A stretch of DNA of 64,000 nucleotides from contig CM067367.1 in the NCBI GenBank assembly GCA_034401795.1, positions 52,435,019 through 52,499,018 on the forward strand. Reading direction: 5' to 3'. Positions 349 through 40,075 of this stretch are shown here, piece by piece (within the stretch, counting starts at the first letter, position 1; every line of letters starts with the position of its first letter). A program made the translations under genes and the position numbers. The notes below the pieces were generated by a model. That model worked only from the letters and a program-made list of their open reading frames with translations. It did no database searches and was not told where the DNA came from. The stretch is from Chaetoderma sp. LZ-2023a. Lineage: Eukaryota > Mollusca > Caudofoveata > Chaetodermatida > Chaetodermatidae.

Positions 349-800
349 CAGCGGTGGCATATTACACATCTTGTATAGTGACATTTCTAATGTCGTGGCT
401 TAAAGAATTTTTCTGCCATTACAAGCAACATGTATATCTCTCGGAATTTACATTTGTCATCAGAAAATTGTTTAACTCTTTGAACCCAGATTCTCAATTG
501 TATCAAAATCATATGTGTAGCATAAAGAGCTATTTTAAACTAATTTGACAGGAGCAGGTGCACACAAATTTGGTTTAACATATTCAACAGAATTGTTATG
601 AAACAGCAAAGTAACTTTTGATTTATTTGGCCTTTCGAGTTAGAAAGGCTAAAGTAGCTCAAACATTATATTTAGCAGGTAGCCATATATCCATGTCTGA
701 CCACTTTATTTCCACAGGCTAACCAATCCTGAAATCGAAACCTTTTGTAGAGAAAATAATATGCCTTTTGATGCCAGCTCTCTTATGGAATATTATCAAA

Positions 801-1015
801 CTAGGTATGCATATTATTATTATTATTATTATTATTATCATCGTCGTGGGTGTCATCATCGTTGTAACTGATGGTATCGCCACCATCATCGCCATCATCA
901 TTATCATCATCACTGTTGTTGTTTTTGTTGTTGTTGTTGATGTTGTTCTTCTTCTTTTTCTTCCTTTTCTTCTTCTTGTACTTTTTGTTGTTCTTGGTGT
1001 TGTTGTTGTTGCAGT
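801..1015. repeat. compound trinucleotide low-complexity tract
   Basis: Runs of ATT, ATC, GTT and CTT triplets in succession, open in several frames only because of low complexity. The homopolymer-rich peptides from both strands are not real proteins. Confidence 0.9.
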
Positions 1016-2743: not shown

Positions 2744-2834
2744 GTTACTCAAAGTTGTTCGGAAAGTATCTGCACAGCGCACAGGCGGCACCCGCCCTGT
2801 TGTTTGGCAAGATGTAATTGATCATATTTTGAAG
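2744..2834 (+). CDS. beta-N-acetylhexosaminidase, internal exon 1 of window
   Basis: First visible exon of a GH20 beta-N-acetylhexosaminidase gene. This enzyme class removes terminal N-acetylglucosamine or N-acetylgalactosamine from glycans and glycolipids, usually in the lysosome or secretory route. The exon follows a TAATCCCCAG acceptor and ends AAG before donor GTATTT. It contributes one nucleotide plus 30 codons: LLKVVRKVSAQR, then TRPVVWQDVIDHILK. V-V-W-Q-(D/E)-V is the conserved strand of the GH20 barrel whose Trp lines the substrate pocket. It ends in phase 0 and joins exon 4133-4304. The preceding exon, which should carry the catalytic Asp-Glu pair of the GGDE motif, is not in the window, so the gene is 5'-incomplete. 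Confidence 0.85.
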
Positions 2835-4132: not shown

Positions 4133-4304
4133 CTCGATCATGATACAGTCATCCATGTGTGGAAGGGTGGCATGAATGACGTAGAACGGGCCATCAACAT
4201 GGGACATCATGTTATATACTCGACATGCTGGTATCTCGATCAAATCAAGTATGGGGTGCACTGGGCATCATATTACAGATGTGACCCAGCTGACAGTAAC
4301 CAAG
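4133..4304 (+). CDS. beta-N-acetylhexosaminidase, exon 2 of window
   Basis: Follows the acceptor CTCTTCACACAG. Reads LDHDTVIHVWKGG, then GHHVIYSTCWYLDQIKYG, then YYRCDPADSNQ. This is the GH20 stretch with the conserved I-x-V-W strand, the W-Y-L-(N/D) motif with the substrate-contacting Tyr, and the Y-x-x-D/E-P segment. The Asp after WYL is the residue where vertebrate alpha and beta subunits differ. The exon ends after AACCAAG at a GCAAGT donor, a GC-AG intron. The only nearby GT alternative (GTTGAG) would put a stop in the next exon. It is flanked on both sides, within 35 bp, by family A MITEs in opposite orientation. Confidence 0.88.
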
Positions 4305-8526: not shown

Positions 8527-8568
8527 CGGACTGCGAGCCGGACAACCCCGTTAGACGTCGAGGCGTCT

Positions 8569-13190: not shown

Positions 13191-13281
13191 GTTATCACAT
13201 TGATGAAAGCAAGGTGTTGGGTGGCGAGGTCGCTCTCTGGGCTGAGTATATTGACAACGAAAATCTGATGACGACATTATG
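13191..13281 (+). CDS. beta-N-acetylhexosaminidase, exon 3 of window
   Basis: Follows the acceptor CACATTTTAG. The first two bases complete the Gly codon begun in exon 2, then YHIDESKVLGGEVALWAEYI and DNENLMTTL follow. V-L-G-G-E-x-x-x-W-x-E-Y is the GH20 hallmark of the last barrel strands; the Trp and Glu of WAEY correspond to the residues that hold the sugar C3/C4 hydroxyls in characterised enzymes. It ends in phase 2 with TG before donor GTAATT. An (AAT)n tract begins a few bases into the intron. Confidence 0.88.
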
Positions 13282-18071: not shown

Positions 18072-18357
18072 AGCGGTTCACAATCAAGAGCTAATTCTCT
18101 CTGTACAAATAAACCACGGTCATGAACACAAAATTCCTAATCTTGTCGCCTAAATCTGTATGTAATGTTCTACACCTCAAACTGGACTTTTACATAACTG
18201 AACACGTGTGCTGTTTCCCGCCACGCATGGACATCAAGCGGCGTGAAGTCATGCATGCATGTGCATTTCGTACTTGGAATTATGTCAGCTAACGCGGGGA
18301 CAAAAAGTATGGCAGCCCAGTTGTACCATCATGTTTCTACGTTCTATTGTTTTTGCT

Positions 18358-20392: not shown

Positions 20393-20948
20393 CTAGACGC
20401 TTCTGTCCAATGCGGTGGCCCTACATATGTCATTGGCATTTACTTTAACACCATGGTGACCAAGTTTGGAATTGATCGTTTGAACAACTATGTCTATATT
20501 GTCTGTATTTTCTCTATTGGTCTCGGGGATGCCATGAATAAGTAGGCAAGTTCGGCGGGAGTGTTGTTCTTGGGCATCTAGTTCAGATTCTAGCTTTTCC
20601 TTATCCTGCTGAAGGCTTACAATTTGATCTTTCATGAGTGAAATTTCATTTTTCATTTGTTCTAGGTCACTAGATAGGCTTTTGTAGACCTCTTGCTTGA
20701 TTTCACGTACTATTGATTCGAACGGTGGCTTCAATAATTGTGGATTTGACCGTAAGCTTTCTGCCACACTAGAAGCAATAACATTATTAGATAACTTTTT
20801 AATGAAGTCCTTGTCATTTGTAATTATATTATACACACCGTCCTTAACTTCATCCAATTTGACCGGTTTTTTTATTACCCATAGTGGTGATTTAGAGTTA
20901 CCCGTTTTTGCAACAGTTTGACCTCTTCTATCACATATATAGAAATGT
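20393..20948 (-). pseudogene. LINE ORF1 fragment (coiled coil plus RRM-like)
   Basis: The minus-strand frame includes NSKSPLWVIKKPVKLDEVKD, a heptad-like charged stretch (QMKNEISLMKDQIVSLQQDK, then EKLESELDAQEQHSRR), and an RRM-like start CLLIHGIPETNRENTD. It ends NDICRATALDRSV at a stop. One base out of frame the sequence reads GHRIGQKRLEQARS, the usual continuation of this domain, so a frameshift truncates it. ORF1 proteins of this type bind RNA in the LINE particle. It is antisense to the host gene, and upstream (minus sense) of the RT relic at 14620-15870, so both may come from one broken insertion. Confidence 0.7.
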
Positions 20949-21299
20949 TTAACTTGCAGATTTCATTTTTCACGTACTGACTACTATGTAGATATTATAA
21001 GCTCCGCTTATTAATTCATTTCCAGTCACATTATCATACACATATCCATCAATAACATTGACAAAGGAAGAGGGAAAAAATTCAGACAGCCATTCTTCTT
21101 CTTCTTCTTCTTACTTTGACTTCTCAACCTTATATTTCAGAATCTGTTAATCCTGCTGGAACTAACTGAGATACATAGTTGAATATGCTGCTGGAATCTC
21201 CATTATGCCATTTAGGTCACACGTTCAAAGGTCTTTGATGGTTATTGGTAATGAGGACTGGTGCAGCATTTAACTGTGGGGGAGGTGATGTCTTACATT

Positions 21300-21400
21300 C
21301 CCTTACATTTCCCTTCCTTTCCCTCCCTTCCTCCCTCGCTCCCTCCCTCCCTTCCCTTCTTACCTCCCTCCCTCCCTCCCTCTCTCAATCACTTCTTCTG
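21300..21400. repeat. CCCT-rich polypyrimidine tract
   Basis: CCCTTCCCTCCC repeats on the plus strand. Confidence 0.85.
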
Positions 21401-21544
21401 CCTCAAGACTTAGCCTGAAGATGGTTCTACTGTAAATGAATTGGATAATGCACCCCATCTAGTGATGTCAAGGACAAGGTACGTCTTGTGGGCCCAGATG
21501 ATAGTGGAGATTGTTTTACCTAGTTCTGTAAGAAAAGTGTGTCA

Positions 21545-21547
<3 letters not shown>

Positions 21548-21579
<32 letters not shown>

Positions 21580-21580
21580 C
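21548..21580. repeat. (AAT)n microsatellite before exon 4 acceptor
   Basis: About eleven AAT units, 13 bp upstream of the splice acceptor. Confidence 0.9.
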
Positions 21581-21593
21581 TTATTTTGACCAG

Positions 21594-21698
21594 GCCTCGT
21601 GCTTCCCTCGCAGCTGAGCGACTCTGGAGTAACAAGAAAGTGAACGATGTTGAGGTAGCAAGCCATAGACTTCAGGAACATAGATGCCGAATGCTTGG
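21594..21698 (+). CDS. beta-N-acetylhexosaminidase, exon 4 of window
   Basis: Follows CTTATTTTGACCAG. The first G completes the Trp codon from exon 3, giving W then [18 protein letters not shown] and [18 protein letters not shown]-x-x-x-x-E-R-L-W is diagnostic for animal GH20 hexosaminidases, and the Cys of HRCRM forms the C-terminal disulfide in the human enzymes. It ends in phase 2 (GG) before donor GTAAAA. Confidence 0.92.
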
Positions 21699-21884
21699 GT
21701 AAAAATATTTAACCATTTTTGACGTTAATTGTTCAGATCTAACTTGCATGATATCTTGTTAATTTTGAAATAAATGTGACAGTACTAGCAGTTGTTGCTG
21801 GCTATTTTGACTGGAAAAGGTTTGATTCAATAATGTTATTAGATAGCTAATGTGATGCATGTGTTGTGAAGTTAATTAACCTTT

Positions 21885-22115
21885 CGAGTTTTAGATATGC
21901 CCCGCCCATCTCTATCTAAGCTCCACCCACACCTCACTCATGTTGGGATAGATCGATCTCCGACCGCCCTGACGGATTGTTTATTAAATAGGAAATCCAT
22001 CAAATACATACAATTCTTACACTTGAGTATTTCTAACTATTGTGATTGTGATATAATTGATTATGATGTCATATACTTGAGTGACAGATCGGTTTCATTC
22101 ATCAAAAGATTAAAG
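21885..22115 (+). repeat. family A MITE copy, hairpin deleted
   Basis: GCCCCGCCCATCTC and AAGCTCCACCCAC at left, directly joined to TTTATTAAATAGGAAATCC and ATTATGATGTCATATACTTG. The central hairpin is missing. It begins 187 bp after exon 4. Confidence 0.7.
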
Positions 22116-22385
22116 GGAAATTCCAGTGAAAATCGGGAATAAGTCAACTAAAAATATACTATAATCTGAAATAGTTGCCGCAAAAAAAAAAAAAATACAC
22201 TGTTCCATTGCCGAGAAATAATAAAATGAATATGCCCAAAACGCTCGAAAACGTGACTCCTGGTCGCATCCATTTTCTCGCAACGAGAGCGAGAAACTGC
22301 GAGATTATGACGTCAAAGACACACCAGCAAAATATCGCCTGCGCTTTTAGATTTACCTGTACTTCGCGTTATGAAGGCCGAATAT
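22116..22385. other. intron 4, unassigned
   Basis: A13 run near 22182, then sequence with GAGCGAGAAACTGCGAGATT and a GACGTCA site. No exon recognised. Confidence 0.4.
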
Positions 22386-22615
22386 TAATTAACCCTTTAA
22401 TGACCAAATTCTGTCAGGAAAATCAGAATATTTCCTTATTGAATGGCCATTTGCAGGCCAAGCGAAGACTATTTTTGACAATTGACCACTGGAATGGCTG
22501 GTTCTGTTACTGAGACAGTCGTTTTAGTTGTAAATTCTCAAAATAGCCTTCTTTTGACCTGCGTCCTCAAATCAACGATTGCAGAGGCCAGTGCTGGCGT
22601 GAAATGGTTAAATCG
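22386..22615. repeat. family B palindromic MITE copy
   Basis: Begins TTAACCCTTTAATGACCAAA. The arms GGCCATTTGCAGGCCAAGCG and CTTCTTTTGACCTGCG flank a core with CACTGGAATGGCTGG. It ends near GGTTAA at 22605. The TTAA plus CCCTT termini resemble piggyBac-type elements. Confidence 0.6.
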
Positions 22616-23863
22616 CATCATGTCCGCATGTCAACCATGGGCTTGCAGTAATAGAAATTAGCATGGAAAGGGTACGGCAATTCACATTTTCAGATACCGG
22701 ATCCACAGAAGCATCCGCATGAAAAGGGGCTAACTGAAAGATGGCTTCACAACATCGCCACTGGATGGATATCTTCCACATTTAAATTTGGAAGACACAA
22801 GTTTAGAACATATAGTCTGTATAATTTTAAAATAATGTGTCATGCATTTCAAAACAAAAGGCGCGGTACTTAATTTTAATATAACAATCAAACTCGACAA
22901 TTAATGTCGTATTTGCTTGGATCAATTGTAAAACGGGATTTGCAAACCAAAATGAAACGATGTCGCTGATTGTCCGGTCAGTCAATTATAGGCAACCACT
23001 TAGCGGCTTACTTCGTAGACGATAGGAGGTGACAGCTAGTAAATAATGACAAGTGTATGCTAGACATAATTAGTAGTTTAGTGCTTTCACACTATTGAAA
23101 TCCAGCGTTATTAATCATTTACAACGTTTACTCCCAATTTTAAAATAACTATGCTGAGTGTTGAATATTCTGAATGAAATTTTCCTGGAATTATGTTGCA
23201 GTAGCTTCCAAACTAATTAGTTTCACACAATATGCAGGGTAAATTTTAAGCTTTCTGCTTTTCTGTCCTTGAAAGAGTTAACTAATTATCCCAAATTTTT
23301 AAATGTTGACCCATATTTACTGCCTGTTGAATATTTTGAAACTGGAATTTGACAGGAAGCAGAGGTTGCAATAGCAACAGCTTTCAGAGAAATTACATTC
23401 AACATTTATTCAAGTAACATATTTTTCAAGAATTTGTTGTAGCTGGTTGATTGCAAACACGCTCCTGGCATAACCCTTCAATGTTTTAAAAAAATAGAAA
23501 TTGCCCATAAGAAAACAATTTTTGACGATTTAGCACTACAATGACTGGCGCGATCATCGGGACACTAATTGCACTTTAATTTCCTCCAAACACTGTGGCA
23601 AAGTATCAGTTCTTTAGCCAGTATGCTAATTATCCACGAGATGCAAGATTTACCTCCCCTGGTTACGGCTATCCTCGATCGGGCAAACAGAGTAGGTGTG
23701 TCGGTGACGTCAGCTGCTTGTCCAAAATGGTGCCTCTATCTACTGGTTACTTTAGCAATTTAAATTGAGGATATCTTTTTTATTTGTTGGCATAAAATTG
23801 TGCTCTTGGTCTCAAATTAATGCGGAAAATTAGTACTTTACGTCAGATGCATAAAATCTCCCA
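22616..23863. other. intron 4, degenerate repeats only
   Basis: A weak family A hairpin at 23320-23420 (CTGTTGAATATTTTGAAACT ... AGCAACAGC) and a family B fragment at 23480-23580. Otherwise AT-rich with no exon seen. Confidence 0.5.
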
Positions 23864-24339
23864 GTGGAATATCCCTTTAATGTATTATCATGTATTTCTC
23901 TAAGCCATGAAGTTTTTGATCTGTCAATGTTTTGCGATGCTTATTTATGTCAATGTGTTTCCCAGTTTACCCCGATGCCAATGCACTTAACCATTTCAAC
24001 TTCTTGCCCTAATTATGTGCCCTATGTTGTCTATATGTACCCTAGAATCCAACATGAATGCAAATTTATCCTCGACCTGTAACTTTACTATTTGTCAATG
24101 GTTGTCCAGCATAACTGTCAATGTTTGTTATTCTTCCTGTATACTTTATTTCTCTTCGTTCCATCCGTACACACTTGTTTGTTGCATAAAGATCCTAATC
24201 CCACAGTCCAATCCTTTAATGAACAAAACTGGTCAAGAAAACCACAAAACTTGCTTACTGTACCATAGTAAATTCCAGCTTCTAGCCAAACTCCTCCAGT
24301 CCTTTGTCGGTGTTGAGATCGATCAAACCATGAATTCCC

Positions 24340-24635
24340 AAAATCCCAAGATCACAGTTACTGTTCATGCAAACTGTTGGGTTTTTTTAGACTGGTTGCA
24401 GTTGCTGCCCATGGCAGCCATGGTGCCCAGTCGGGTTCGGTTTAAAGTATTCAGCAGAATGTATATTAAATAGTAAATCCATCAAAGACAATACAATTAG
24501 TACACCTGACAGACTATGCCATGTCCATGATGGAGTATTTCTGTCAATTATGATTTTGACATCATCCTATATGTAATGTAATTAACTAGGACGTCATATA
24601 TTTGAGCAACAGATCAGCTTCATCCATTAGAAGGA
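24340..24635 (+). repeat. family A MITE inside triplicated block
   Basis: Hairpin with GTTGCTGCCCATGGCAGC, then TTAAATAGTAAATCCATCAA, TGACATCATCC and a final GATCAGCTTCATCCATTAG. Confidence 0.65.
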
Positions 24636-24999
24636 TAAAGTTTAATATATTGTTGCCACAGCAATTTACAACTTTATCTGTTTACTTTTAAATCTTGCTA
24701 CACTGATATTAATGCTCTAAAATTATGAATGCATGTATTTCCCTATTAACTCCTGAATGATTATGATTTGCCAATGATTTTCTCGTGGTGATGCCAATGT
24801 GTTTCCCAGGTTACCCATGTGTTAATGCTCTTAAATAGTTACATGTTCAAGCCTTTTCTTAATTATATGCTTTATGCTGCCTCTATATGTACTCTAGAAC
24901 CGAACATGAATGCAACTTCACCCTAGACATATAGCTTTACTATTTGCCAATGGCTGTCCAGCATAGCTGTCAACGGGTTTTTTTTATCATGCTGTGATC

Positions 25000-25320
25000 A
25001 ATCAAACCCTGAATTCCAAAAATTGCACCCAATATCACAGTATTCATGCAAGCTGCTTGGCATTTTGAGACTGGATTGACTGGTTGCCGTTGTTGCCCAT
25101 GGCAGCAACAGTGCCCAGTCGTGTTCATTTTAAAATGCTCAGCAGAATGTTTGTTAAATAGTAAATCCATCAAAGACATACAATTCGTACACCTGACGGA
25201 CTATCACAGGTGATGCCAGTGTATTTCTGTCAATTATGATTATGACATCATCCCATCTGTAACGTAGTTCATTATGGCATCATATATAATTGAGCAACAG
25301 ATCAACTTCATCCATTAGGT
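25000..25320 (+). repeat. family A MITE inside triplicated block, paralogous copy
   Basis: Same layout as 24340-24635: hairpin with GTTGCCCATGGCAGCAACAG, then AAATAGTAAATCCATCAAAG and GATCAACTTCATCCATTAG. Confidence 0.65.
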
Positions 25321-26166
25321 TGTTAAAGTTTTATATATTGTTGCCATAACACTTTAAATCTTGCTCCCCTCATATTATGCTCTAGAATTATGAATGCATG
25401 TATTTCACTATTAATCCCTGAAGTTTATGATTTGTCAATGCTTTTCTCATGCTAATGTCAATGTGTTCCCCAGTTTACCCATGTGTCAATGCACTTAAAC
25501 AGTTACATGCTCAACTTTTTGCTTAGTTATATCCTTTATGTTGCCTCTAGATGTACTCTAGAACCTAACATGAATGCAAATCCACCCCAGGCCTGCAACT
25601 TTACTGTTTGCCAATGACTGTCCAGCATAACTGTCAATGTCTTTTACTCTTCCTGTATACGTTACGTCTCACATGTTCCATCCGTATTCCCTACAACTTG
25701 TTTGTTGTATAAAAAACCTGATCCCACAGTTCAATCTTTTAATGGACAGAAATGGACAGAAAAATCACAACACTTGCTCACTGTACCATACTAAATGCCA
25801 GCTTGCATGTACATTTCTCAGTAAGTTATGACTGGAATGACAGACTTGTTTATCAGGTCTGGAATTCCAGAGATGAATTTCTGGAAAATGCCATGTCCTA
25901 GCCTGCTAATCCATAGTAAGCGAACATGAAAGCATGTACTTACACCATAGCCCATGTGCATAGAAGTTTACTAATTGTCAATGTGTTTTTCCCAACATCA
26001 CCATCAATGTCATTTATTCGTTCCTAATACTTTACTCTCGTACCTTCCATCCATATACCCTAAAAATAATCCCTTGATTCTTGTATAGCAATCTCTCACC
26101 AAAAACTTACCGAATCCACATGCTCTGTCAACTGCAAAATCTTTATATTGATATACCTTCGCCACA

Positions 26167-26169
<3 letters not shown>

Positions 26170-26241
<72 letters not shown>
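26170..26241. repeat. (CT)n microsatellite
   Basis: About 35 CT units with one interruption. Confidence 0.95.
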
Positions 26242-26489
26242 ACACCCTCTCATATCTTGGTCTACCTGTCCTGTCCCATGCCTGTTAAGTTCCCCTGCTC
26301 TTCCTGTAGAAAGCATGTTATGAGATTTATGTAGCAAATGGATTCATTTGACCGGCTCCAAACTAACAACCTCTGATTACTCCAACCTTGAAACTGATAG
26401 CTCACCCTGGTGATGCACTAACCGTACTGCAACAAATCACTCTTGCCATCCAATCACTATGATGATAACACAGACTACATGCTTGCCGT

Positions 26490-29030
26490 TTTAAATCCAT
26501 ATGGCAACATACATGTACCTTAACCAACACGAATCTTACCTAGGCACATCTGTTTCCGACCAGACTGGCAGAAGACATGATATTAACACAGCTACCCTGA
26601 ACCCATTTGAACTAAACACATCCCCATGCGACCAGACTGACACTAGACCCGACCTTAACATAGTTTCATCCACTTATGACTACATCCTACAACAGACATT
26701 CAATAACAACTTTATACAAAACAAGGAACAAATACATTTTTCACTCCTATTTATCAATATGCAATTGCTCATGAAGAATATTGGAAAGTTACAATGTCTC
26801 CTTCAATATTGAAAATTTTTAAAACACCATGTCTGAGGTAGATTGGAGTACTGTCTCCAGATATTCAGTATTGTGAAGATGCCTACACCAAGTTTCATGA
26901 CATTTGCACACATATCTTTGAACACAGCTTCCCTTTGAAGGAAAAGAAGATTTCAGGACAACCCTGCAAAACCCTGGCTCACAAATGGACTGATAACTGC
27001 CTGTCACAAAAAACAGACTTTATTTGGCATTTATTAAATGTCAAACAAAGTAGAACGAACTAAAATTTAAGGACTACAGAAATAAACTTGACCAAATAAT
27101 AACAGCTCAAAAAACTACTACCAAAATAGATTCGAAAATCTAAAAATGACAGAAAAATGAAACATATAATTAAATCACTTTTGAATAAAAAGATTGGCAA
27201 AGCGCAGCAAACACAATTTCGTTACAACAACACAATTATAACTGATGACTGAAATTGCAAACGGATTCAATGATTATTTTGTTAATATCGGTCCAACTCC
27301 TTCAGATAAAATAAAATCAATGTCCAGAAATAAATACTGTCATTATCTGACAGGCAGCTACCAATCTTTTTTCATTAACCCGGTCAGCGATGAAGATAAT
27401 CTTAACATTCTGAACACATTTAACCCTGCAAAAAGCGATGGCCTTGATAATTTCAAATGGAGCATTTTCAAACACTGCATAATAGACTTACTAACACCAC
27501 TCAATCACATATGCAACATATCTCTAACACAAGACATTTTTCCGTCAAAACTATAATCTGCACGAGTAACACCTATACACAAAGCAAAAGATGCATCTGA
27601 TTTCACAAATTACAGACCTGTCTCAATACTTTGACCTTTTTTCCAAATTACTGGAACGACTTATGTACAATCGGCTTACAAACTACCTAGACAAAAAGTC
27701 AATCTTGTATAAATCACAATACGGGTTCCGCGAAAAACATTCAACTATGCTACCTTTAATAGAAATGACAGAAAAATTATTGACTCAATTGAAAAGAAAG
27801 AACATATAATAAGCATCTTTTTGGACCTTTCGAATGCCTTTGACACCATCAACCATGCAATTCTACTAGAATTTTCCTATTATGGAATCAGGGGGACATG
27901 CACTCTTCTGGTTTCAAAGCTACTTAAGTGACAGAATGCAATGTGTGCAATTTAATTCAGCTTGCTCAGAAAATAAGAGCCTATCCTGCTGTGTTCCTCA
28001 GGGGTCCATTCTTGTCCCTCTGCTGTTCCTGGTGTACATGAATGACCTACCCACTACATGCAAAAACATGTCACTAATACTACACTACTGCTGATGACAC
28101 CAATGTCTTCTATTATGACAAAGACATAATTACATTATATGAAAAGGCAAATAAGGAAATGGAGAAAATTACTAACTAGTTTTCATTAAATAAACTATCA
28201 CTAAATGCCGATAAAACAAACTATATGCTATTTTCAAAATCCAGAGAACTTAAATAAAGATATTCCAAAGATTTATGTTAATAAAAAATAAATTGAAGTT
28301 AAGTTCTTAGGAGTATATTTAGATAAAAAAAACCAAATTGACACAGTACCTGCCAAAGTAGCAAGAGGCATGGGTGTCATCCAAAGACTAAAAGCATATA
28401 TGACACAACATACTGTTAAAACACTACAGTGCTTTGATCCTCCCACATCTCATGTACTGCAATACTGTTTGGACTAACATGCACATAAATAAATTATCAA
28501 AATTCAGTCTCCAGAAGATAAGCATTAAACTATTCGCTAATCCAGCAGAGCGCCAAACCATTTTTAAAACTGAAAAACTGCTTAAACTCAAAGGCATCAG
28601 AAAATCACAAATGCTTACTATTGTTAAAGACTTTCATCACAATGTGCTACCCAAATCCATCACCCCATGCTTCACACACATCAGCATTCACCAACCAAAC
28701 ACAAGGACAACACATAATCTGTACATTGAATATGCGTGAACAGACATAGGGAAAAACAGAATATCTATTGCAGCCGGTAAATTATGGAACAGTCCAAAAC
28801 AAGTAACACATGACAAAATGTTAACAGCAAAATCATTCAAGAAAACGATAAAAAAAATTACATAATCGACACATACTAGGACCCGCATAAATAAAGTTAC
28901 CAACACCACTCAAAAATAGCCACACCCAACAGTGCTACTGCCATGGAAACTATTACTACCACTACCACCAACCTATATCGCCACTACTACTACTACTACT
29001 ACTACTGTGGTGGTGCTGCTACTGCTACTG

Positions 29031-29108
<78 letters not shown>

Positions 29109-29450
29109 TGGATGAACACAATTGCTATTACCACTATCAATACCACTACAGAATATTATATTAAAACTACTGGATGAGCTGGTAAATATAACACCGCTAT
29201 ATCCTGCCCACCCACAAACCCCTCTCCGTCCCCTCCCCATGTGGTGTTTTATAATACTATCTACTAAATGCAATGTATATCCTGATATCTAACTGTCGCT
29301 GTTGTCTGTGTTGTTACTGTTCTGTCTATATATGTAAGGTGTCCGCCAGAACTATAGGTTGCCCATTCGGCAGACAACCTGGACTCAATTATGTAAAAAA
29401 ACATGTTACTGTCAAATAAATAATTTTTGATTTAATTTGATTTGATTTGA
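26490..29450 (+). pseudogene. CR1/L2-like LINE, plus strand, decayed with endonuclease deletion
   Basis: Non-LTR retrotransposon in the sense strand of intron 4. The start of an endonuclease domain (IHFSLLFINMQLLMKNIGKL, near 26730-26795) jumps straight to inter-domain sequence, so most of the endonuclease is deleted. RT pieces follow in shifting frames: NGFNDYFVNIGP at 27258, KSDGLDNFKWSIFKHCIIDL at 27430, QYGFREKHSTMLPLIEMTEK at 27718, FQSYLSDRMQCVQFNS with CCVPQGSILVPLLFLVYMND at 27900-28050, then TADDTNVFYYD at 28091 (the YADD block, with Tyr replaced). The C-terminal region reaches about 28860. The 3' UTR has a (CTA)n tract and the element ends in ATTTGATTTGATTTGA repeats at 29450, a simple-repeat tail typical of CR1/L2-like LINEs. 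The right end abuts a family A MITE. Confidence 0.85.
28986..29107. repeat. (CTA)n microsatellite in LINE 3' UTR
   Basis: About 40 CTA units interrupted by a GTGGTGGTGCTG stretch. Confidence 0.95.
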
Positions 29451-29755
29451 CTATCAATTTACAGAAAACTATACAGGTAAGCTCTTGAATATTTTGAAAC
29501 TATTGTGACTGGATGGTGTTTCTGCCAATGGCAGTGACAGCGGCCAGTCCTATTAGTTTCAAAATATTCAATAGCATGTTTATTAAATAGTAAAGACATA
29601 CAATTCAAACAACCTGATGGACAATTAAGCATTTAATACAGACTAAATCAAGTCATTCATGATGTCATGGTTATGATGTCATCCTACACATCACTTAGTT
29701 GATTATGACGTCAGAGGATAGATCGGTAAACTGGAAAGATCCATTAACTATAAAG
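29449..29755 (+). repeat. family A MITE, left end replaced by LINE
   Basis: Starts GACTATCAATTTACAGAAAA right at the LINE tail, with full central hairpin (29486-29574), ATGATGTCATCC boxes and an ACTGGAAAGATCCATTAAC terminus. It ends 206 bp before exon 5. Confidence 0.75.
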
Positions 29756-29960
29756 ACTATAAAACTCATAAACAAATGTACATGTTAAAGTTTAATACAC
29801 ACTCGTTTCATATAAAATTGGTTTGCCCATGTGTGACAAGCGTTAGGGTGTGCATCATACTATGCTTATCGTATTATTTCTAAAATTATCTCTCATTTGA
29901 ACCATGTTTCTGGGATCTTGTGCTATGCAGATAATGTTTTACAATGTTTCCATTTCACAG

Positions 29961-30180
29961 TCGTGGTCTCAGCGTGGCACAGATCAGTGGCCCGGACTAC
30001 TGCCCATCACTTGGTCCCCGACGGCCGAAGAGCTTTATTCGAGAGATGGAAGTAGAGTTAGACAAAGCAGCTGAAGAACGGAAGGCCATTATCATTTCAA
30101 ACAAGAATGATAGTGTGGACATGCTGCAGATGGTACGACGCCTCAAAAGGATGGATGTGCAAACAGATGAAGTACAATCA
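29961..30180 (+). CDS. beta-N-acetylhexosaminidase, exon 5 of window: domain end plus extension
   Basis: Follows TTTCCATTTCACAG. With GG from exon 4 it reads GRGLSVAQISGPDYCPSLGP. R-G-x-x-x-x-x-x-x-x-x-Y-C closes the GH20 domain, and this Cys pairs with that of HRCRM in known enzymes. Ordinary lysosomal hexosaminidases end about here. This frame instead continues RRPKSFIREMEVELDKAAEE, RKAIIISNKNDSVDMLQMVR and RLKRMDVQTDEVQS, a charged, probably helical linker. It ends in phase 0 before donor GTATGT. It is flanked by inverted family A MITEs (29449-29755 and 30360-30660). Confidence 0.85.
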
Positions 30181-30359
30181 GTATGTCTGATCTACTAATT
30201 TTATCTGGGTTTCATTTACCCAACTAACCAACAAGGCACATTGCCAGATCAAATATGATAAAGCATGATATTTAATGGCGGGATTGGATCTGCCAATCAT
30301 GTATCTGATGTCATACTCACATATGACACAAGCTAGCTGAAATCACAATCATAATCATG

Positions 30360-30660
30360 TAGCTTCATCATAAAAATTAGAGGGTATGTCACAAAATTGT
30401 ACAACATGTGTGTCTTTGATGAATTTACAATTTAATAAATATTCTGTTGAATATTTTGATGCTAAGTTGAGTTGGAGTTGTTGCTGCGATAGGCAGCAAC
30501 AGCTCCAAGTCAAATTAGTTTCGAAATATTTAACAGCTTATTTGTATAGCTGCCTTGAATTTTAGATTCTGGCATTTTCGGTTTCAATGTTTCAAATTGA
30601 TGCCAACATGAGTAAGAACTGCATGAACCTTAGCTAGAAATGGATACATTTATTAAATAA
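30360..30660 (-). repeat. family A MITE, inverted
   Basis: Central hairpin 30445-30536 (CTGTTGAATATTTTGATGCT ... AAATATTTAACAG) with GGAGTTGTTGCTGC and GCAGCAACAGCTCC, then a degraded CTTAGCTAGAAATGG end. It begins 180 bp after exon 5. Confidence 0.65.
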
Positions 30661-30731
30661 TAGATGCCTGCTAGAGCAATGGACAATAAGGTGTAGAAAT
30701 TTTTGATATTTTTATATGTCACTATATGGGA

Positions 30732-30815
30732 TCTGATCATTTCAGATTAGCATCGCAAAATGTCATGACTAATAAGAGTCATGACATTTTGCGATGCAAA
30801 TCTGAAATGATCAGA
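30732..30815. repeat. 39-bp-arm inverted repeat (hairpin)
   Basis: Arms 30732-30770 and 30777-30815 pair over 39 bp with one mismatch around a 6-nt AATAAG loop. The arms begin TCTGATCATTTCAGATT and end GTCATGACT. No other copy was seen in the window. Confidence 0.9.
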
Positions 30816-32049
30816 AAACCACTAACAGTCCATAGCAACATATTGAATATTATTAAATTGCTTTAACAGAATGTTGTTCTTGCCTACAACAGTAACAGAT
30901 CACTGTCAAAGTAATTTCAATGTATTTATCACTTTGTTGCTGATCTTCATACCAATATTACCATTTTTTTTCATAAATAATGGCTATGTTGAAGTACTGT
31001 CATAATATTAAATGTTGCCATCCAGCAAGATAGATTTTAAGCCAATGATTATTGATTTAATCGACCCAAAACTGGAATATATGGTGACAGGATTTAGATA
31101 ATATCAGTTTCTACACAATCTTGTTTATATCTGTCACCCGCCGCATAAACATATTCACAGGCTTCAAAACTGCCAAAGATCCTTGGATTTTCATGCAAAT
31201 CCAATTAAAATAAAACATTTCTGATTATAGATGTACCATGCATAGGGTAATGCTCGAATGCAAGTCCTAGGAAATTCTTAGGAATTCTAGGATGGATTAG
31301 AACAGACGTATGCTAGTTATCCTAGAAATCTAACAATTCTAACCAGGGGCTATTCTCCTGTAAATGTTGTTATCTATCCTTATGATGACATTATTTACCA
31401 TGTTTTCTGACATCTTACTGACTATGTTTATGACAGGTAGTGAAAGCCACTGGTTTATGTTCATTATAGCGTCATATAATCGATGATGTGTGGATGCAAT
31501 TGGGTTGTTATTAGATATCACATCAGCAAATATCATACACCTTTCCCGTCATTAGCTGGCAACATGTTGGGAAACATAGGCCTTGGCATAAACTGAAATT
31601 GTTTCCCCACCAGTCCGTGGTGATATGATAGATATCAATGGTGGCTTGTGCAATTATTGTGTTGGGTGATCGCGTCCGATTATTAAGAAATAATTGTGAT
31701 TACTCGATTAATCAGCTTGGATACAAATTGCCAAGACATAACAGCAAAAGAATATCAATGACGAAAATTGCAATGATGATAGAAAAGTCCAGGCATTCCA
31801 GTAACACATTTTCAAAAGTAGTCCTCTCTTGCCCTGCAAATGGACATACATTCACTAAGCAAAAAGCAATTTTTCATGAATGATCGCATTAAAAAGTAAT
31901 TGAAAATTAGGTTTTGAAATATTTTATGCAATAGAAAGTATTCACGATTATTCGATTATTTAATTCTTTATCATATAAATCCATGATTTAAAACATAATC
32001 ACGATTTTCGATTTAATTGTGTAATTGCGCAAGCCTATATCAATGTTAC
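30816..32049. other. intron 5, unassigned
   Basis: AT-rich. Half of a family B arm lies at 31780-31860 (CATTCCAGTAACACATTTTC, then TGCAAATGGACA). No exon is needed here, since exons 5 and 6 join in frame at phase 0. Confidence 0.5.
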
Positions 32050-32240
32050 ATCTTCAAAATGGAGGAGTCCAGGTTTAGCTATGCCCCACCCACATTTACC
32101 TAAGCTCGCCATACTTCGCCCATATTGGGATCGATTGATCTTGATCCTTGAACTCCCTGTCTATCAATTTCCGGAAAACTATACAGGTAAGCCCTTAAAT
32201 ATTTTGAAACTGATTTTACTGGGTGATGTTGCTGCCTATA
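32050..32240 (+). repeat. family A MITE, right part lost
   Basis: GCCCCACCCACATTTACCTA, GATCGATTGATC, ACTATACAGGTAAGCCC and the left hairpin arm only, ending at GATGTTGCTGCC. It ends 68 bp before exon 6. Confidence 0.7.
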
Positions 32241-32307
32241 TAATTGTAAATAAATAAACAAATAAATAAATGAATAATCCTCACCTATTCATATTTTCTT
32301 CTTACAG

Positions 32308-32556
32308 ATTGTACCAAATAACTTTGTCTTGGCCATTTCATTGGTTATCTTTGTCGCTTTGACTGCAGCACTTCTCTTTCGGTTCCGGACTGGGAATGGT
32401 TCTCATGGACTTGTACGAATCTGGAAGAACAAGACAATTATGGCAGTATTCTTCACATTAGTTCTTGTCTATGTTGCTTCGAGTACAACAATAGTATGGA
32501 GAGCTTTCCATGAACAATTCAGAGGCATTTATGTTTTAAACAGAGCCACTAGCTAG
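32308..32556 (+). CDS. beta-N-acetylhexosaminidase, last exon: two membrane segments and stop
   Basis: Follows TATTTTCTTCTTACAG. Reads IVPNN, then a hydrophobic segment FVLAISLVIFVALTAALLF, a short basic loop RFRTGNGSHGLVRIWKNK, a second hydrophobic segment MAVFFTLVLVYVASSTTIVW, and ends WRAFHEQFRGIYVLNRATS with TAG at 32554-32556. Codon phase 0 matches exon 5 exactly. If real, the enzyme is anchored by two C-terminal membrane spans with the catalytic domain and the C-terminus on the lumenal or outer side. The alternative is that exons 5 and 6 are also spliced to a different transcript, or that exon 6 belongs to another gene. No AATAAA polyadenylation signal was noticed in the next few hundred bases. 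Confidence 0.72.
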   Translation: MVPNNFVLAISLVIFVALTAALLFRFRTGNGSHGLVRIWKNKTIMAVFFTLVLVYVASSTTIVWRAFHEQFRGIYVLNRATS

Positions 32557-32810
32557 CATTGTGTGCAAAAGTCTGGGATTGGTTTAGCATGCATATGGTG
32601 ATATATTGGCATTCATGCCTCTAAACCATAGGCACATTCTTTGCGCGGTGTCATGAATAATTTGTTTAGACTGTCTAGTGCATAGGCCAAGAGTATATAA
32701 CCATATTCTCCCATAGCTACACACGGAATAAGAACTTCTTATTGATGTCAACTTTGCGGAAAAAACATTTTTTTGAGTTACTTATATGCCTAGGAAAGAT
32801 ACATAGAGGA

Positions 32811-33370
32811 CGTGACATGAGGTCTCATTTAATAGCACTATTGTCAACCGAGTAAAGCATTATCACATTGCATGATCCTTAACGAGTGCAATTTGATAAT
32901 TTTTGATGGGTTGATAATAGTGATATTAAATGAGACCAAGTTTTTCACATAAAGGTTGATCCCTGAAATTGGTTTGAATGCACAATTTTTCCCTGTTCGC
33001 TTTCGTCGCTATGCCACATCATTTGCTAAGAGTAACCAATGCACTATTTCCAAATTGAAATTACTTTTAATGCAAATTTTAAGATTTCTGTCTGGCTCAT
33101 GAAGATTTACAAACATATTTCATAACTTGGTGGTATATACTTTAGAAAATTTAAATCTACAACACAATGTATCCTGCCATGTTGACATTTTCGCCGTCGG
33201 TGTCTACAAAACATCTGCGGCATCATGGGGAATGTGGGATTATTACGCGTTAATTAATGAAATATTTCTTAAGTGTTATCTCACCAGTGTAAATCCTTCA
33301 TTAAATATTACATGTGTGTTGATATCGAGAAATATTAACGGGCTGAAGGCCATATTTATATGATAGATGA
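32811..33370 (+). repeat. family C nonautonomous repeat, copy 2
   Basis: The left hairpin has arms GGTCTCATTTAATA..ACTATTG and TAATAGTGATATTAAATGAG, and the core CGAGTAAAG...CCTTAACGAGTGCAA. The right end has GATATCGAGAAATATTAACG and a TTTATATGAT tail as in copy 1 (1826-2465). It lies just beyond the gene's last exon. Confidence 0.6.
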
Positions 33371-34312
33371 ATTTGTGAGAATTGTATAGCAGCTGGCATT
33401 ATCAATACAGATATCAATTTAATTAGCAGCAATGTTGTCCTGTAACAGCAACCATGTTGCTATTGGAACATAATGCTACACCATTATTGTAAGTAAGATC
33501 CCAATGTAATATCATTATATTTTCGGTTACACAATTGATGGATCTGATATGTTACTCGGAGTATGATGTAATAATTAAAATACATGACTTGCTTAGTACT
33601 GTCACAATCAAAATGATGTATGTCTATCATCAAAGTGGACAGCTGTCTGTTATGATAGTATCGGAATTATATATCTTATGTGTAGTTATAATTTAATAAC
33701 CATAACTTTTGAATGTGTTGACACAAACGTTGACACCATAGACAGCAACTAATCAAATTAGTTCTAAGATATTCAACAACTTAACTGGATACGCAGTTAT
33801 CTTAAAATTCGAATTCTGGGAATTCAGAACACCCACAAGTTTACCCTGATCCCCCTGACTATCAAGTTTCGAGCGGAGTTGAACTAGAGATATACGGGTC
33901 CTCATAGCTAGAAATCATTCCCTCTGTTCCAGACAGTGGATCTGATGCAACACTAGCAATATCACTGTGATATAATGCATGAATCTGGTGAGTGTTCTGT
34001 AATGAGTTATACTGAGAAAGTATAGAATTGTACATAAAATAATCAACAGTTTCGGGTAGAGTTGAAATGGATAATACTTAAATATTATGACAAATGGTGC
34101 TATTGTGCCATTTGTAGCAATAATGCAGGAGGCTGTTGACTAAATATATGGTATGAGTTGTCAACAAGTAAAATGATATGAATTCATTCAAACATATTGT
34201 ACAGTGTCCATAAACCATGCGTCTTCAACATCTGCTTCTCTTTATTGAGCAGTTATGTTGTATTGAATGTTGTTTTCATGCAAACAGATTTTAATTTTTT
34301 AATTGATTTGTA

Positions 34313-34318
<6 letters not shown>
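33371..34318. other. intergenic, no gene recognised
   Basis: AT-rich. A decayed inverted family A copy lies at 33660-33870 (CAAATTAGTTCTAAGATATT, CAACAACTTAACTGGATACG). Confidence 0.5.

Positions 34319-34391
<73 letters not shown>
34319..34391. repeat. (TA)n microsatellite
   Basis: About 36 TA units. Confidence 0.95.
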
Positions 34392-34394
<3 letters not shown>

Positions 34395-34873
34395 ACGTTC
34401 AGTGATATTATGTACATGAATGATATTTCCACGTATCAATTCCTAGTACATTAAACCTGTTTTAGCGACCACCTTATGAGCCCCAAACAGCTATTCACAA
34501 TACGACCACGCTTTAGGTTACTTACTCCATTAACTTTTGAGATTCCTGTGGTTCAATTTCTAGACAATATACAAGAGGGATGTTACATATTTTGATCCAT
34601 TAAAGCAATAATAGCTACCATTGAAATGAGTTTCTAAATATTCAACATGATATTCCTTACATCATAAAGAATGTGTTGTTACTCTCTTCTAAGGCAGGTG
34701 CTGTTTCAGGAATTATCATCACCCATGATAATGCATATTACTGAGCCAGTACTGAACCAATACCGACCCAATATGGCCTGGCATTGATCCAGTACCAGCC
34801 CAATAACCGACCTTATCATGGATTCAATTCCAAACAACAAATGGTCACTAAAGCAGGTTTCCTGGGTGTGGGC

Positions 34874-34910
<37 letters not shown>

Positions 34911-35179
34911 TACTATTTTACTACATGAACATACGGGTAGTTACCCATACCTGCTATTATATGTAACCTCTTCCTTGCATCTCATTTTATTGGTATGCAT
35001 AAATAATCTCTGTCCAATTGAAATAACTCAGACCATTCATAGGCATGTAGAGACAGTCAGTCAGTTTCAGACAAAATACTAAACGCTCGCCCATTCTTGA
35101 ATTCTTGACCAAACACTAAACATGATCTCTGCCACCAATATATGGATGCCATAAAAATCTGATTTGGAGCCATACAATA
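34392..35179. other. intergenic, no gene recognised
   Basis: Contains an (ATT)n tract at 34875-34910 and no supported coding sequence. Confidence 0.5.
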
Positions 35180-36275
35180 AAGCACGCTCATCAACGTTTT
35201 AATTTTTCGCTCAACTGGCCTGAAAGGCCAAGTAGGCTTATGCCATGGCGACCGTCCATCGTCCATCCGTTCGTCATCCATCCGTCTGTCAACTTTTCCT
35301 TTAAATGACTTCTCAAGAACCACTGGGCCGATTTCAATTATATTTGGCAGTAAGCATCCTTAGGGCATAGGGATCCAAGTTTGTTCAAACGAGCCAATCG
35401 GCCAATTTGGCCAGCAGCCATCTTGCATTTTGGCCGATTTTAGGAAACGTCTTTAAAAATTGCCTCCAAAACCGCTTTGGGAATTGATGCAAACCTCATG
35501 AAATATGATCTAGGGCAAGAGCTGAACCAAGTTTGATCAAGGGAACTTGATTGGTCAGATGGTTTGACCACCATGTTGGTTGACCTAGTTTTAGTGAAAA
35601 CAACTTCTCCAGAACCACTGAAGGGATCAGGTCGAAATTTGGCAGATATGATTAGGGACTAAGGCCCATTAAAGTTTGTTCAAAGGAAGTTGATCCGTCA
35701 AAAAACATAGCCGCACCTGGCCAATCAAAATATAGCGTGTTTGGTGGGCATATTGGATTTTTTTATTTGATGGATTTTGAGGCTGAAATTGGTTTCATAA
35801 ATGTTTTTGGGTATTCTGATCTCAAATTTACAATTTTTGCAACTGTCGGATAAACGGTTTGGTGGCCATCTTGGATCATTTTCCCGCCAAAGACTCCCAT
35901 ACTAAAGCAATGGGAAATTTAAAATGTCTTCTCAGGAACTACTGGGCCGATTTCCATTATATTTGACTGGAAGCATCCTTAGGGTGTAGAGATTCGAGTT
36001 TGTTCAAACGAAGCTGATCGGCCGATTTGGCTGATGGCCATCTTGGATTTTTGGCCGATTTTTAGAAATGTCTTAAAAAATCTCCGAAACTGCTTGCAGA
36101 ATCAATTCAAGACTCGTGAAACATCATCTAGGGTAAAAGTCCAAATTTGTTTAATAGCCAGCTTGGATGACCTAATTTTTGCAAAAACAACTCCAGAACC
36201 TCTACTTATAGTCAATTGCCTTTCTAGTTTAAATGCCTATGTTACAAGTGAGCGATACAGGCCCTAGGCCCTCTT
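35180..36275 (+). repeat. 1-kb dispersed repeat with internal duplication
   Basis: Starts with GGCCTGAAAGGCC and CCGTCCATCGTCCATCC-like text, then twice carries the same module: ACTGGGCCGATTTC, AAGCATCCTTAGGG, GTTTGTTCAAACGA, TTTGGCC..GGCCATCTTG and TTTTGGCCGATTTT (about 35315-35540 and 35935-36150). A weaker version starts at 35600. I associate this wording with dispersed repeats in mollusc genomes, from general recollection only. No ORF is conserved. Confidence 0.6.
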
Positions 36276-36581
36276 GTTTTAAATTCTCTCCCTTGCACAA
36301 AATTTAAAATTAGATACTCAAAGACACGTTTTTCTGAATTTTTATTGATAAACAACATTATTAGTAGTCTGAGTCTGCTCTGATGCTCAGCAGTCCCTTC
36401 AGAGATATTTGGGTAGACATGTCTGGCCTACATGGCCCATCATATATATATATATACAAATATCTGTCAGATGGTTGGATGGTGGTCAGAGCAGACCATT
36501 ATTCCTACATCATCCGTTGTAAGCTCAAGTTAAAACAACTGATAACATCTAGCATTCTTGACTAGTTGAATATTCCTGCAA

Positions 36582-36930
36582 TTGATGAATCCAATCTATC
36601 AGTGAAATAAATGACATCATAATCAATTACATCACATGCAGGCTGACGTCACAATCAAATGCGTAATGAATGAACTTTTATGTCAGTTGTACGAATTGTA
36701 TGTCATTACTATTTAATAAACATTCGTTTGAATATCTAGAAAGTAATTCGACTGGGCAGCAACAACACCCAGTCATATTAGTTTTAAAAGATCCAGCTAC
36801 TTAGCTGTATACTGTCCTGTAAATTGAGATACATGTAGTGCAGTGTTCGATCGATCCAAACATGGGCACGGCGTGGGTGGAGCTTAGCTAGAGATGGGTG
36901 GGGCATGGCTAAAAGTGGATTCATCTATTG
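36582..36930 (-). repeat. family A MITE, inverted
   Basis: The inverted ends ATTGATGAATCCA and TGGATTCATCTATT define it well. CTGACGTCACAATC box at 36643, shortened hairpin, GTGGGTGGAGCTTAGCTAG near the right end. Confidence 0.8.
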
Positions 36931-37029
36931 ATGAAGCGCCTTTATAAAATGTTTTAGCAGAAAAGGGTGAGGTGTGATTACCACTCAGATAAATGTGTAT
37001 TGAGGTTGGTGTGCTGAAATCGGGAATTC

Positions 37030-37400
37030 ATTGAGGGACCCATTTCTAGCTGTGCCCCGCCCATTTCTGGCTACGCTCTGCCCACATCTGAAGCTTGTTC
37101 GATTTGATTTGAAACTTTAAAGCCTGAATTCCCAGAATCTTAATTTCAAAGTAAATGTACAAGTTGAATATTATGAAACTAATTTGACTGGCAAATTAGA
37201 TTTAAAATATTCACCAGAATGTTTATTAAATTGTAAATTCATCAACGACACACAATTCATACAATTGTGTGACAGACTTTTCGATTTTCCTGACAGACCT
37301 ACATTACTATGATTGTGACATCAACTAATATGTGATGTATTTGATTATGACATCAGATACTTGAGTAACAGGACGCAGAGATCTATTTGACCGGAAAGTA
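37030..37400 (+). repeat. family A MITE, diverged
   Basis: GCCCCGCCCATTTC, TGAATTCCCAGAATCT, a reduced hairpin (AACTAATTTGACTGGCAAAT), TTAAATTGTAAATTCATCAA and ATTATGACATCAGATACTTG. Confidence 0.65.
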
Positions 37401-37429
37401 CAACTTCATCAACATCTATTGAAATTTTT

Positions 37430-37895
37430 GAATCCAATCTATCAGTCAAGTATATGCCATCATAATAAATTATGCCACATATAGGCTGACGTCACAATCA
37501 ACTACGTAATGCTTGTCCGACAGAATTAAAGTCTGTGAGTTGTTCAAATTATTATTATTAATTATGTATTACTATTTAATAAATATTCTGTTGAATATTT
37601 TGAAACTAATTTGACTGGGTGCTGTTCCTGCCATAGGCAGCAACAGCATCTAGTCAAATTAATTTCAAAATATTCAACAGAATATTTATTAAATAGTAAT
37701 ACATAATTAATAATAATAATTTGAACAACTCACAGACTTTAATTCTGTCGGACAAGCATTACGTAGTTGATTGTATAGTTTCCTGGAAATTGAGATTCAG
37801 AGAGTGCAGGGATCGATAGATCCCAACACGGGCAAAGAGTGGAGCCTAGCTAGAAATGGTCGGGGCATAGCTAAAAGTGGATTCATCCATTACTC
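37430..37895 (-). repeat. family A MITE with extended palindrome
   Basis: Starts GAATCCAATCTATCAGTCAA and ends AAGTGGATTCATCC. Its centre has been converted into a long palindrome (separate entry), so the normal right half is partly replaced by a copy of the left half. Confidence 0.75.
37495..37773. repeat. 279-bp near-perfect palindrome
   Basis: Arms of about 138 bp centred at 37634. The left arm starts CAATCAACTACGTAATGCTT and the right arm ends AAGCATTACGTAGTTGATTG. Only isolated mismatches were seen (for example TTCCTG versus CAGCAA by the centre). In other family A copies the stem is about 45 bp. Confidence 0.93.
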
Positions 37896-38029
37896 TCTAA
37901 ATATTCAACAGATTAACTGTTTTGAACTTGAGATTTTAGCATAACAGTAAGGTGGAGAGTTTGAAACTGAATGACCAAATACGAAAACTTGTGTTGTTGC
38001 TGTTTTAGGCCGTGTTCTACTGAGAGAAT

Positions 38030-38345
38030 TAATCCGGAAAAATGGTATATTTCAGCATTGCGTTATTCCAGATTTAGACTATGTTCGCACTGGAGACTTA
38101 CCCGGCACAATGCAATACTGAGGTATGGCATTATTCTTGATTAACTCCCCATTGAGAACATGGCCTAAAGCCGCATTTCCCGATTAACTCCCTATTGAGA
38201 ACATGGCCTAAAGCCACGTTCTCACTGGAGAGTTGATTGGGAATAACGCCATACCTCACACTGTCGGTACACCATTTACGTCTAGTGAGAGCTAATCGGG
38301 AATAACGCCATAACTCTGTATTGCGTTACGCCGGTTAAGTTTCTA
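38030..38345. repeat. local tandem and inverted repeat cluster
   Basis: GATTAACTCCC.ATTGAGAAC followed by ATGGCCTAAAGCC occurs twice in tandem (about 38143 and 38180). GTTGATTGGGAATAACGCC and GCTAATCGGGAATAACGCC appear inverted to it at about 38230 and 38287. Probably a small fold-back element. Confidence 0.6.
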
Positions 38346-38581
38346 GTGAGTAGTGTCTTTAGATTTGGATTTGGGAACTTCAGGTTTCAAGGAGTTAATA
38401 GTCAATGTTAACAAGTCCTTTTTTCTTCCGTTAGGTGGCTATCATGTAGGTATATATGTGTATGCTTTAGGACTTGCAACGCAAAAACTGTACTGCCTTT
38501 TATTTAGAGGTCGCTAATATACTATGCAATTTTTGTATTGCACATATGTGAAATTAACTCGACATGTTGTAAAGTCCAAGG

Positions 38582-38625
<44 letters not shown>
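38582..38625. repeat. (AAT)n microsatellite
   Basis: About fourteen AAT units. Confidence 0.95.
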
Positions 38626-38627
<2 letters not shown>

Positions 38628-39299
38628 AAAGAACTGGTTTATGTTTTATTTAGATGAAATTAAAATATTTATAATTTAATTCATATAATTTGTGATTGTA
38701 TTATTAAATTGCATTATATTTTATTTTATTGATAAATCTGTTCTGGTAGAGCATTGAAATGATTATAAATGCTGAGGTAATTGTATGTATATTTTGATAG
38801 TTAACTATGAACCAAATCAAGCATTACCCAAGGTTATTCAACATAATTAAATTTGCAACAATGCCCATGCCTAAAGCAAAAACATCACTGAACAAAGAAA
38901 CAATCACAACAAGATCCTTCTCAATGCAAGTTTGACAGAATGTTCAGACTCAGAGTATCCAAAACAATAAGAATCAGTACTACACAATACCTATTCATTG
39001 CGCAAAACTCTGGTGGACACACACACACACCTCCCCATTTCACGGCCAATCAAGACCCCTGCATTGCCGATTAACATAATCAGAAGTTAGAAAAACAATG
39101 GGAGCCGTGAAGAACAGTTAGGAGTGAATCAATCTCAACATATATCATCAAATCGGCCTTTGAAAAACACCACTGGACCCCACATAGATGATATGGAAGA
39201 AGGCGGACTCATCGCACTGTGCAAACTATAGAAACACACCCTAAGTGGCTGCAAACTGAGTCGGATCGTGGTTTTGAATTGCATTAGAAGAATTCTGTT
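38626..39299. other. intergenic, no gene recognised
   Basis: AT-rich in the first half. No supported coding sequence or repeat family seen. Confidence 0.5.
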
Positions 39300-39705
39300 A
39301 AGTTTGATCCTTTCCATATTTAGCTATGCCCCGCCCATCTCTAGCTAAGCTCCACCCACATCTCCCTCATGTTGTGATCCATCGATCTCTGAACTCCATG
39401 ACTATCAATTTCCAGAAAACTATACAGGTAAGCTGTTGAATATTTTGAAACTAATTTGACTGGGCGTTGTTGCTGTCTATGGCAGCAAGAGTGTCCAGTC
39501 AAATTAGTTTCAAAATATTCAACAGCATGTTTATTAAATAGTAGAGACATACAATTCGTACAACGTGTCGGACTATTAAGAGTTAAAGACGGGCCATATA
39601 GAATCATTTATGATTTATTGATTACGACATCATCTTATATGCTGCTTAGTTGATTATGACATCATATGATGTCAGATTGATAGATGAATACTCTGGAAAG
39701 GTGAA
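39300..39705 (+). repeat. family A MITE, well preserved
   Basis: CCTTTCCATATTTAGCTATG start, GCCCCGCCCATCTC, AAGCTCCACCCAC, hairpin 39434-39526, TTATTAAATAGTAGAGACAT, ATTATGACATCATATGATG and a CTCTGGAAAGG end. Confidence 0.8.
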
Positions 39706-39767
39706 TTCCAAATCGGGGTGTAGTTTGAACTATTGCTTTTGTTTTCAATTCTTGAATACACTCGATG

Positions 39768-40075
39768 TTTGCCATCGCAAACACTTATGAATCGTCAGAA
39801 ACACTTATGAATCATCAGAAACACTTATGAACCATCACAAACACTTATGAATCATCACAAACACTTATGAATCATCACAAACACTTATGAACCATCATGA
39901 ATCACTTATGAGCCATCACAAACACTTCTGAACCATCACAAATACTTATGAACCATCACAAACACTTGTGAATCATCACAAACACTTATGAACCATCACA
40001 AACACTTATGAACCATCACAAACACTTATGAACCATCACAAACACTTATGAACTATCACGAATCACTTATGACCA
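39768..40075 (+). repeat. 20-bp minisatellite
   Basis: About 15 tandem units of AACACTTATGAACCATCACA with point variants (ATCATC, ATCGTC, one 17-18 bp unit near 39900). It lies between two family A MITEs in opposite orientation. Confidence 0.95.

Follow-up and report, generated by a model that had tools for sequence, protein, structure and literature searches.

A HEXA/HEXB-type hexosaminidase gene with a predicted two-segment C-terminal membrane tail in the mollusc Chaetoderma

Can a hexosaminidase of the lysosomal type carry a membrane anchor of its own at the C-terminal end of the chain? This question is raised by a gene that lies partly within a stretch of 64,000 nucleotides of the Chaetoderma sp. 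LZ-2023a genome (assembly GCA_034401795.1, contig CM067367.1, positions 52,435,019 to 52,499,018 of the forward strand), hereafter called the window. HEXA/HEXB-type enzymes are relatives of the enzyme that is lost in Tay-Sachs and Sandhoff disease. A preliminary description of the window had proposed that a GH20 hexosaminidase continues past its catalytic domain and, over an in-phase splice, into two hydrophobic segments before the stop codon. At the level of the sequence, the best splice model joins an intact catalytic domain of the HEXA/HEXB type in frame to such a two-segment tail. We regard the product as probably a genuine, membrane-tethered form of an enzyme already known, with a location and a role that we infer below. 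As a whole, the earlier interpretation is partly supported.

The gene model was built from tblastn matches of human HEXA, used as a query, to the window and its upstream sequence, in which the splice sites were then read. Positions 20000-40000 of the window were read letter by letter, and the exons 29961-30180 and 32308-32556 were translated. A genome-wide search for the GH20 family gave three weak matches on the contig (C9) and strand of the window, immediately upstream of it, along with two comparable groups of matches on contigs C4 and C2. Twelve exons were assembled between C9:52422639 and window position 32556; seven lie in the window and the other five precede it (Table 1). Spliced together, they keep one reading frame and encode a partial protein of 552 residues, and the window holds the 3' part of this HEXA/HEXB-type GH20 gene. 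Ten of the 11 introns are of the GT-AG type and one is GC-AG, at window positions 4304-4305 after the exon 4133-4304 (ACCAAG/gcaagt). The coordinates, frames, splice sites and phase-0 join first given for the two terminal exons were found as described when the sequence was read and the gene modelled. Their numbering as exons 5 and 6 needed correction: within the window they are the sixth and seventh exons found, and in the gene as a whole they are numbers 11 and 12 of 12.

Hexosaminidase D had been our initial guess for the parent family and was abandoned after the exons matched HEXA/HEXB. The assembled protein matches the Pfam GH20 family (PF00728) over profile positions 1-347 of 348 (E 2.2e-87, 294.1 bits against a cut-off of 22.3). 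Its best match among solved structures is human HEXB (E 2.4e-131, model residues 1-411), followed by human HEXA (E 7.1e-127) and, next, by insect enzymes (E 1e-65). Over the aligned part, the identity is 49.4% to HEXA, 49.5% to HEXB, 45.9% to the paralogue on C2 and 41.7% to that on C4. The motif GGDET is present in the alignment, and the catalytic Asp-Glu pair and nine further positions, which we take to be the active-site positions of HEXB, are identical throughout (11/11). The Leu that follows WYLD in HEXB is a Gln in the window protein. These results support a kinship of the catalytic domain with the lysosomal hexosaminidases. Only the end of the N-terminal domain is present (Glycohydro_20b2, positions 101-130 of 130, Pfam).

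The HEXB match stops at the last Cys of the motif YC, which is residue 502 of the 507 residues of the HEXB chain, and 141 residues of the model lie beyond it. Beyond this Cys a charged linker follows in the same frame, and a phase-0 intron separates it from the last exon. The first account of this region, with a GH20 domain that ends at YC and a charged linker in frame behind it, is borne out by the end of the HEXB match, and its remark that lysosomal hexosaminidases lack such a tail agrees with the human enzyme. The hydropathy of the joined protein likewise recovered the two hydrophobic segments of about 20 residues as 19-mers of the last exon, FVLAISLVIFVALTAALLF and IMAVFFTLVLVYVASSTTI, with Kyte-Doolittle (KD) values of 2.88 and 2.08; in the rest of the 552-residue model no segment reaches KD 1.6. 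The loop between the two is basic, and 20 mostly polar residues follow the second. A single-sequence AlphaFold model of the last exon alone, which is weak evidence, places helices at 2-28, 32-39 and 42-81 with a mean pLDDT (predicted local distance difference test) of 73.3. A soluble lysosomal enzyme ends soon after its last disulphide Cys and has no membrane segment; in the best gene model the chain runs on and contains two hydrophobic segments.

Acceptors were scored with a matrix trained on 29 of the 32 other acceptors located in the window gene and its two paralogues; one acceptor of C4 and two of C2 were left out. With a score of 12.4, the site at 32308 is the highest of 269 AG sites in 30221-36000, where the next best reaches 7.8, and it ranks second of 2471 when the range is extended to the window's end. 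Of the 14 best acceptors listed for 30221-36000, the remaining 13 lead into phase-0 peptides of just 0 to 40 residues. When 1875 acceptor-like sites (488 kb of strand) were examined, 7 opened a phase-0 frame that had two hydrophobic segments and a length of 60 amino acids or more; by our reading of the translations by eye, these are exon 12 itself, two transposon sequences and four simple or low-complexity repeats (two repeats were flagged by the script). Exon 11 as a whole gave the best codon score of the six frames in its coding frame (0.177) when 1445 cleaner training codons were used. Its part after YC scored 0.157 in a first run, for which the training set was poor and included a bacterial-looking gene, a repeat-filled frame and off-target frames.

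Several observations weigh against a tail encoded in exon 12. The donor at 30180 (TCA/GTATGT) scores 1.6, compared with 5.2 to 11.8 for nine training donors, and is equalled or beaten by 370 of 2342 GT sites. An alternative donor at 30132 scores 4.5 and would shorten the linker by 16 residues with the tail unchanged; both donors are in phase 0, and the tail therefore follows whichever is used. The codon score of exon 12 was reached by 24 of 50 control windows in the first run, and in the second run, with the cleaner codons, it was -0.112, a value exceeded in three of the five other frames. The codon test also fails on the C4 tail (-0.196), though this tail was in the training set and shares one open frame with a GH20 domain, and 2 of the 11 other exons of the window gene fall below zero in the second run; because of these cases, we treated the test as uninformative for hydrophobic stretches. 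The guanine-cytosine (GC) content of exon 12 (0.398, flanks 0.335) was reached by 74 of 340 control windows and is not decisive. The second hydrophobic segment is marginal, with a sum of only -0.14 on a hydrophobicity scale.

The searches for relatives of the tail count on the same side. No Pfam family exceeded its cut-off (best E 0.15), a fold search in the PDB gave 0 matches at E up to 10, and of 15 stretches on viral contigs that fit a pattern, none was confirmed. In a search of the genome that scored the best candidates only (4 and 2), the tail exons matched only themselves, bar a weak match between the last exon and contig C7 (E 1.18, 31% over 35 residues). At the other end of the gene, the ~37.6 kb searched upstream did not yield the exons for a signal peptide or for the greater part of the small N-terminal domain. 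A search of C9 for the family PF14845 returned only the exon already known; as the N-terminal exon seen on C4 escaped it too, we regard this search as insensitive. An origin of the tail as a transposon or other repeat was rejected, because neither tail exon had a second copy among the best candidates scored in the genome, the weak C7 match aside.

Weighing these points, we think it likely that the gene encodes a HEXA/HEXB-type exo-beta-N-acetylhexosaminidase with a C-terminal membrane tail of two helices. To judge from the paralogues, the former last exon would have been lengthened by the charged linker, and one extra exon would have been gained for the two membrane-spanning helices. After entering the secretory pathway, as its lysosomal relatives do, the protein would be tethered to the membrane by a helical hairpin whose short basic loop would face the cytosol. 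Active site and C-tail would then be lumenal or extracellular, because the positive-charge rule would place the basic loop in the cytosol. The same topology had been suggested at the outset, and the basic loop, as read from the sequence, fits it. So placed, the enzyme might trim terminal beta-linked N-acetylglucosamine (GlcNAc) or N-acetylgalactosamine (GalNAc) from glycoproteins at the Golgi or the cell surface, and not in lysosomes.

The strongest competitor is a soluble enzyme, in which the mRNA would run through exon 11 into the intron and stop at 30198 (..DEVQSVCLIY), or use a short alternative last exon, with 32308-32556 excluded. That in-frame stop ends 18 bases beyond a donor that is only fair, exon 12 fails the codon test, and human HEXA and HEXB as well as the C2 paralogue end without a tail. 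We nevertheless consider a soluble product unlikely: the best acceptor of the region falls exactly at the start of a phase-0 exon, its listed competitors open little or no frame, and a charged linker of nearly 60 residues past the last Cys would have no evident use in a soluble enzyme.

The hydrophobic exon might also be real and the tail be removed, or serve as an assembly aid, rather than form a permanent anchor. The marginal second segment would suit this, as would the tail of the C4 paralogue, which is laid out like a removable signal for glycosylphosphatidylinositol (GPI) attachment. However, a GPI signal terminates in its hydrophobic stretch, whereas here the polar residues follow the second segment, and we give this version only a slim chance. 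Slimmer still is the prospect that exon 12 is part of a separate small membrane-protein gene. A tail without recognised kin in Pfam or in this genome need not belong to the GH20 gene, but its frame has no Met from the acceptor to the second hydrophobic segment, its strong acceptor is in phase with exon 11, and no other gene was noticed between exons 11 and 12 in the sequence and frames read.

Table 1. Exons of the window gene and the tail of a paralogue (window positions unless a contig or locus is named)
Feature	Position	Strand	Basis
Five exons upstream of the window	C9:52422639-52432879	+	tblastn, splice model
GH20 exon (LTNPEIETFCRENNMPFDASSLMEYYQTR), sixth of 12	718..804	+	tblastn, splice model
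GH20 exon carrying VVWQDVIDH	2744..2834	+	tblastn, gene model, HEXB alignment
GH20 exon carrying VIHVWKGG and CWYLDQ; GC-AG intron next	4133..4304	+	tblastn, gene model, HEXB alignment
GH20 exon carrying GGEVALWAEYID	13191..13281	+	tblastn, gene model, HEXB alignment
GH20 exon carrying ...HRCRML	21594..21698	+	tblastn, gene model, HEXB alignment
Exon 11: end of the catalytic domain (RGLSVAQISGPDYC) and charged linker; alternative phase-0 donor 30132	29961..30180	+	translation, gene model, codon and splice scores
Exon 12 (last, stop included): two hydrophobic segments, basic loop between them, short C-tail	32308..32556	+	translation, gene model, hydropathy, AlphaFold, splice score
Hydrophobic tail of the C4 paralogue, GPI-anchor-signal layout	L021 ~4266-4448 (C4:55574265 onward)		

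The introns of the window gene contain remains of mobile elements, seen from their open frames at 6261-11452, 15061-15598, 17053-18077 and 26800-28900. We take these to be a retroelement with reverse-transcriptase-like and recombinase-like frames, fragments resembling a long interspersed nuclear element (LINE), and a fragmented Tc1-like transposase. At ~39780-40000 of the window there is a tandem array of short units around AAACACTTATGAACCATCAC.

The genome holds further GH20 sequences. Its strongest GH20 match (L001, G000:C18:3125222-3126214) is an intronless open frame of 788 residues with a Bacteroidota-like look; near it are what we presume to be an IS200-like transposase and a further glycosidase-like frame, and contig C18 of the assembly may be of bacterial origin. 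Many additional GH20 exon matches lie on contig C13 (~24.9-25.2, 115.3-115.5, 129.3-129.4 and 137.2-137.3 Mb), apparently an expanded group that by our impression is of a more chitobiase-like type.

Three HEXA/HEXB-type genes were read in this genome, each with its own kind of C-terminus. The chain encoded on C2 ends in FCRYEVPPQP and a stop, much like the human enzymes; that on C4 continues as GDYEYGMNDDDDGYILTATSGASKQALLTSLGVWLLSALIAVCVII before its stop, an arrangement that resembles a GPI signal or a lone tail segment; and the window gene on C9 has the two-segment tail. An intron immediately ahead of RG...C occupies the same position in all three genes. In a tree of five sequences, the window gene and the C4 gene form the two longest branches, and the grouping among the paralogues is unsupported (C9 with C2, 0.315). 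Tentatively, two of the three genes could have gained anchors separately, one a two-helix hairpin and the other a GPI-type tail, with the third soluble and lysosomal; a lysosomal enzyme would then have been turned twice into a membrane-held glycan trimmer. We see in this a possibility that falls short of an even chance. If it were true, Golgi N-glycan processing or gamete recognition would be among the conceivable uses.

To our knowledge, it is open which enzyme makes N-glycans free of terminal GlcNAc outside insects and nematodes, and so is the case of lysosomal-type hexosaminidases that occur at the cell surface without a clear anchor. If the window protein is what we propose, it would offer a direct candidate, a HEXA/HEXB-type enzyme that brings an anchor of its own at the C-terminus, and would show that enzymes of this type can be redirected by a simple gain of an exon. 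Among the titles and abstract openings covered, which mostly leave out subscription papers and so cannot prove absence, we recognised no GH20 enzyme with a C-terminal two-pass anchor.

How does the window protein compare with known systems? It is like human HEXA and HEXB in its sequence identity and in its 11 active-site positions, and unlike HEXB in what follows: the HEXB match leaves the last 5 residues of the human chain uncovered, whereas the window protein has the further 141 residues with their two hydrophobic segments. The insect enzyme Fused lobes (FDL) has an anchor that we take to be N-terminal, unlike the predicted C-terminal hairpin found here. FDL is a GH20 subfamily-2 hexosaminidase (PMC11308363), and constructs of FDL and of nematode enzymes were built without their original transmembrane domains (PMC4339880). 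The nematode HEX-2 of Trichuris suis is described in PMC11308363 as a hexosaminidase with a predicted N-terminal membrane anchor; it is like the window protein in having a predicted anchor, whereas the latter is of the HEXA/HEXB type with its tail at the C-terminus. The Drosophila sperm plasma membrane is reported to carry Hexo1, Hexo2 and FDL, relatives of HEXA/HEXB on the cell surface, and Hex A has been reported on human fibroblasts (PMC4006722); a C-terminal two-helix anchor, as predicted here, is not mentioned in the passages on these enzymes. The unusual feature of the window protein is the position of its predicted anchor, a C-terminal hairpin on a HEXA/HEXB-type enzyme, and not membrane attachment as such.
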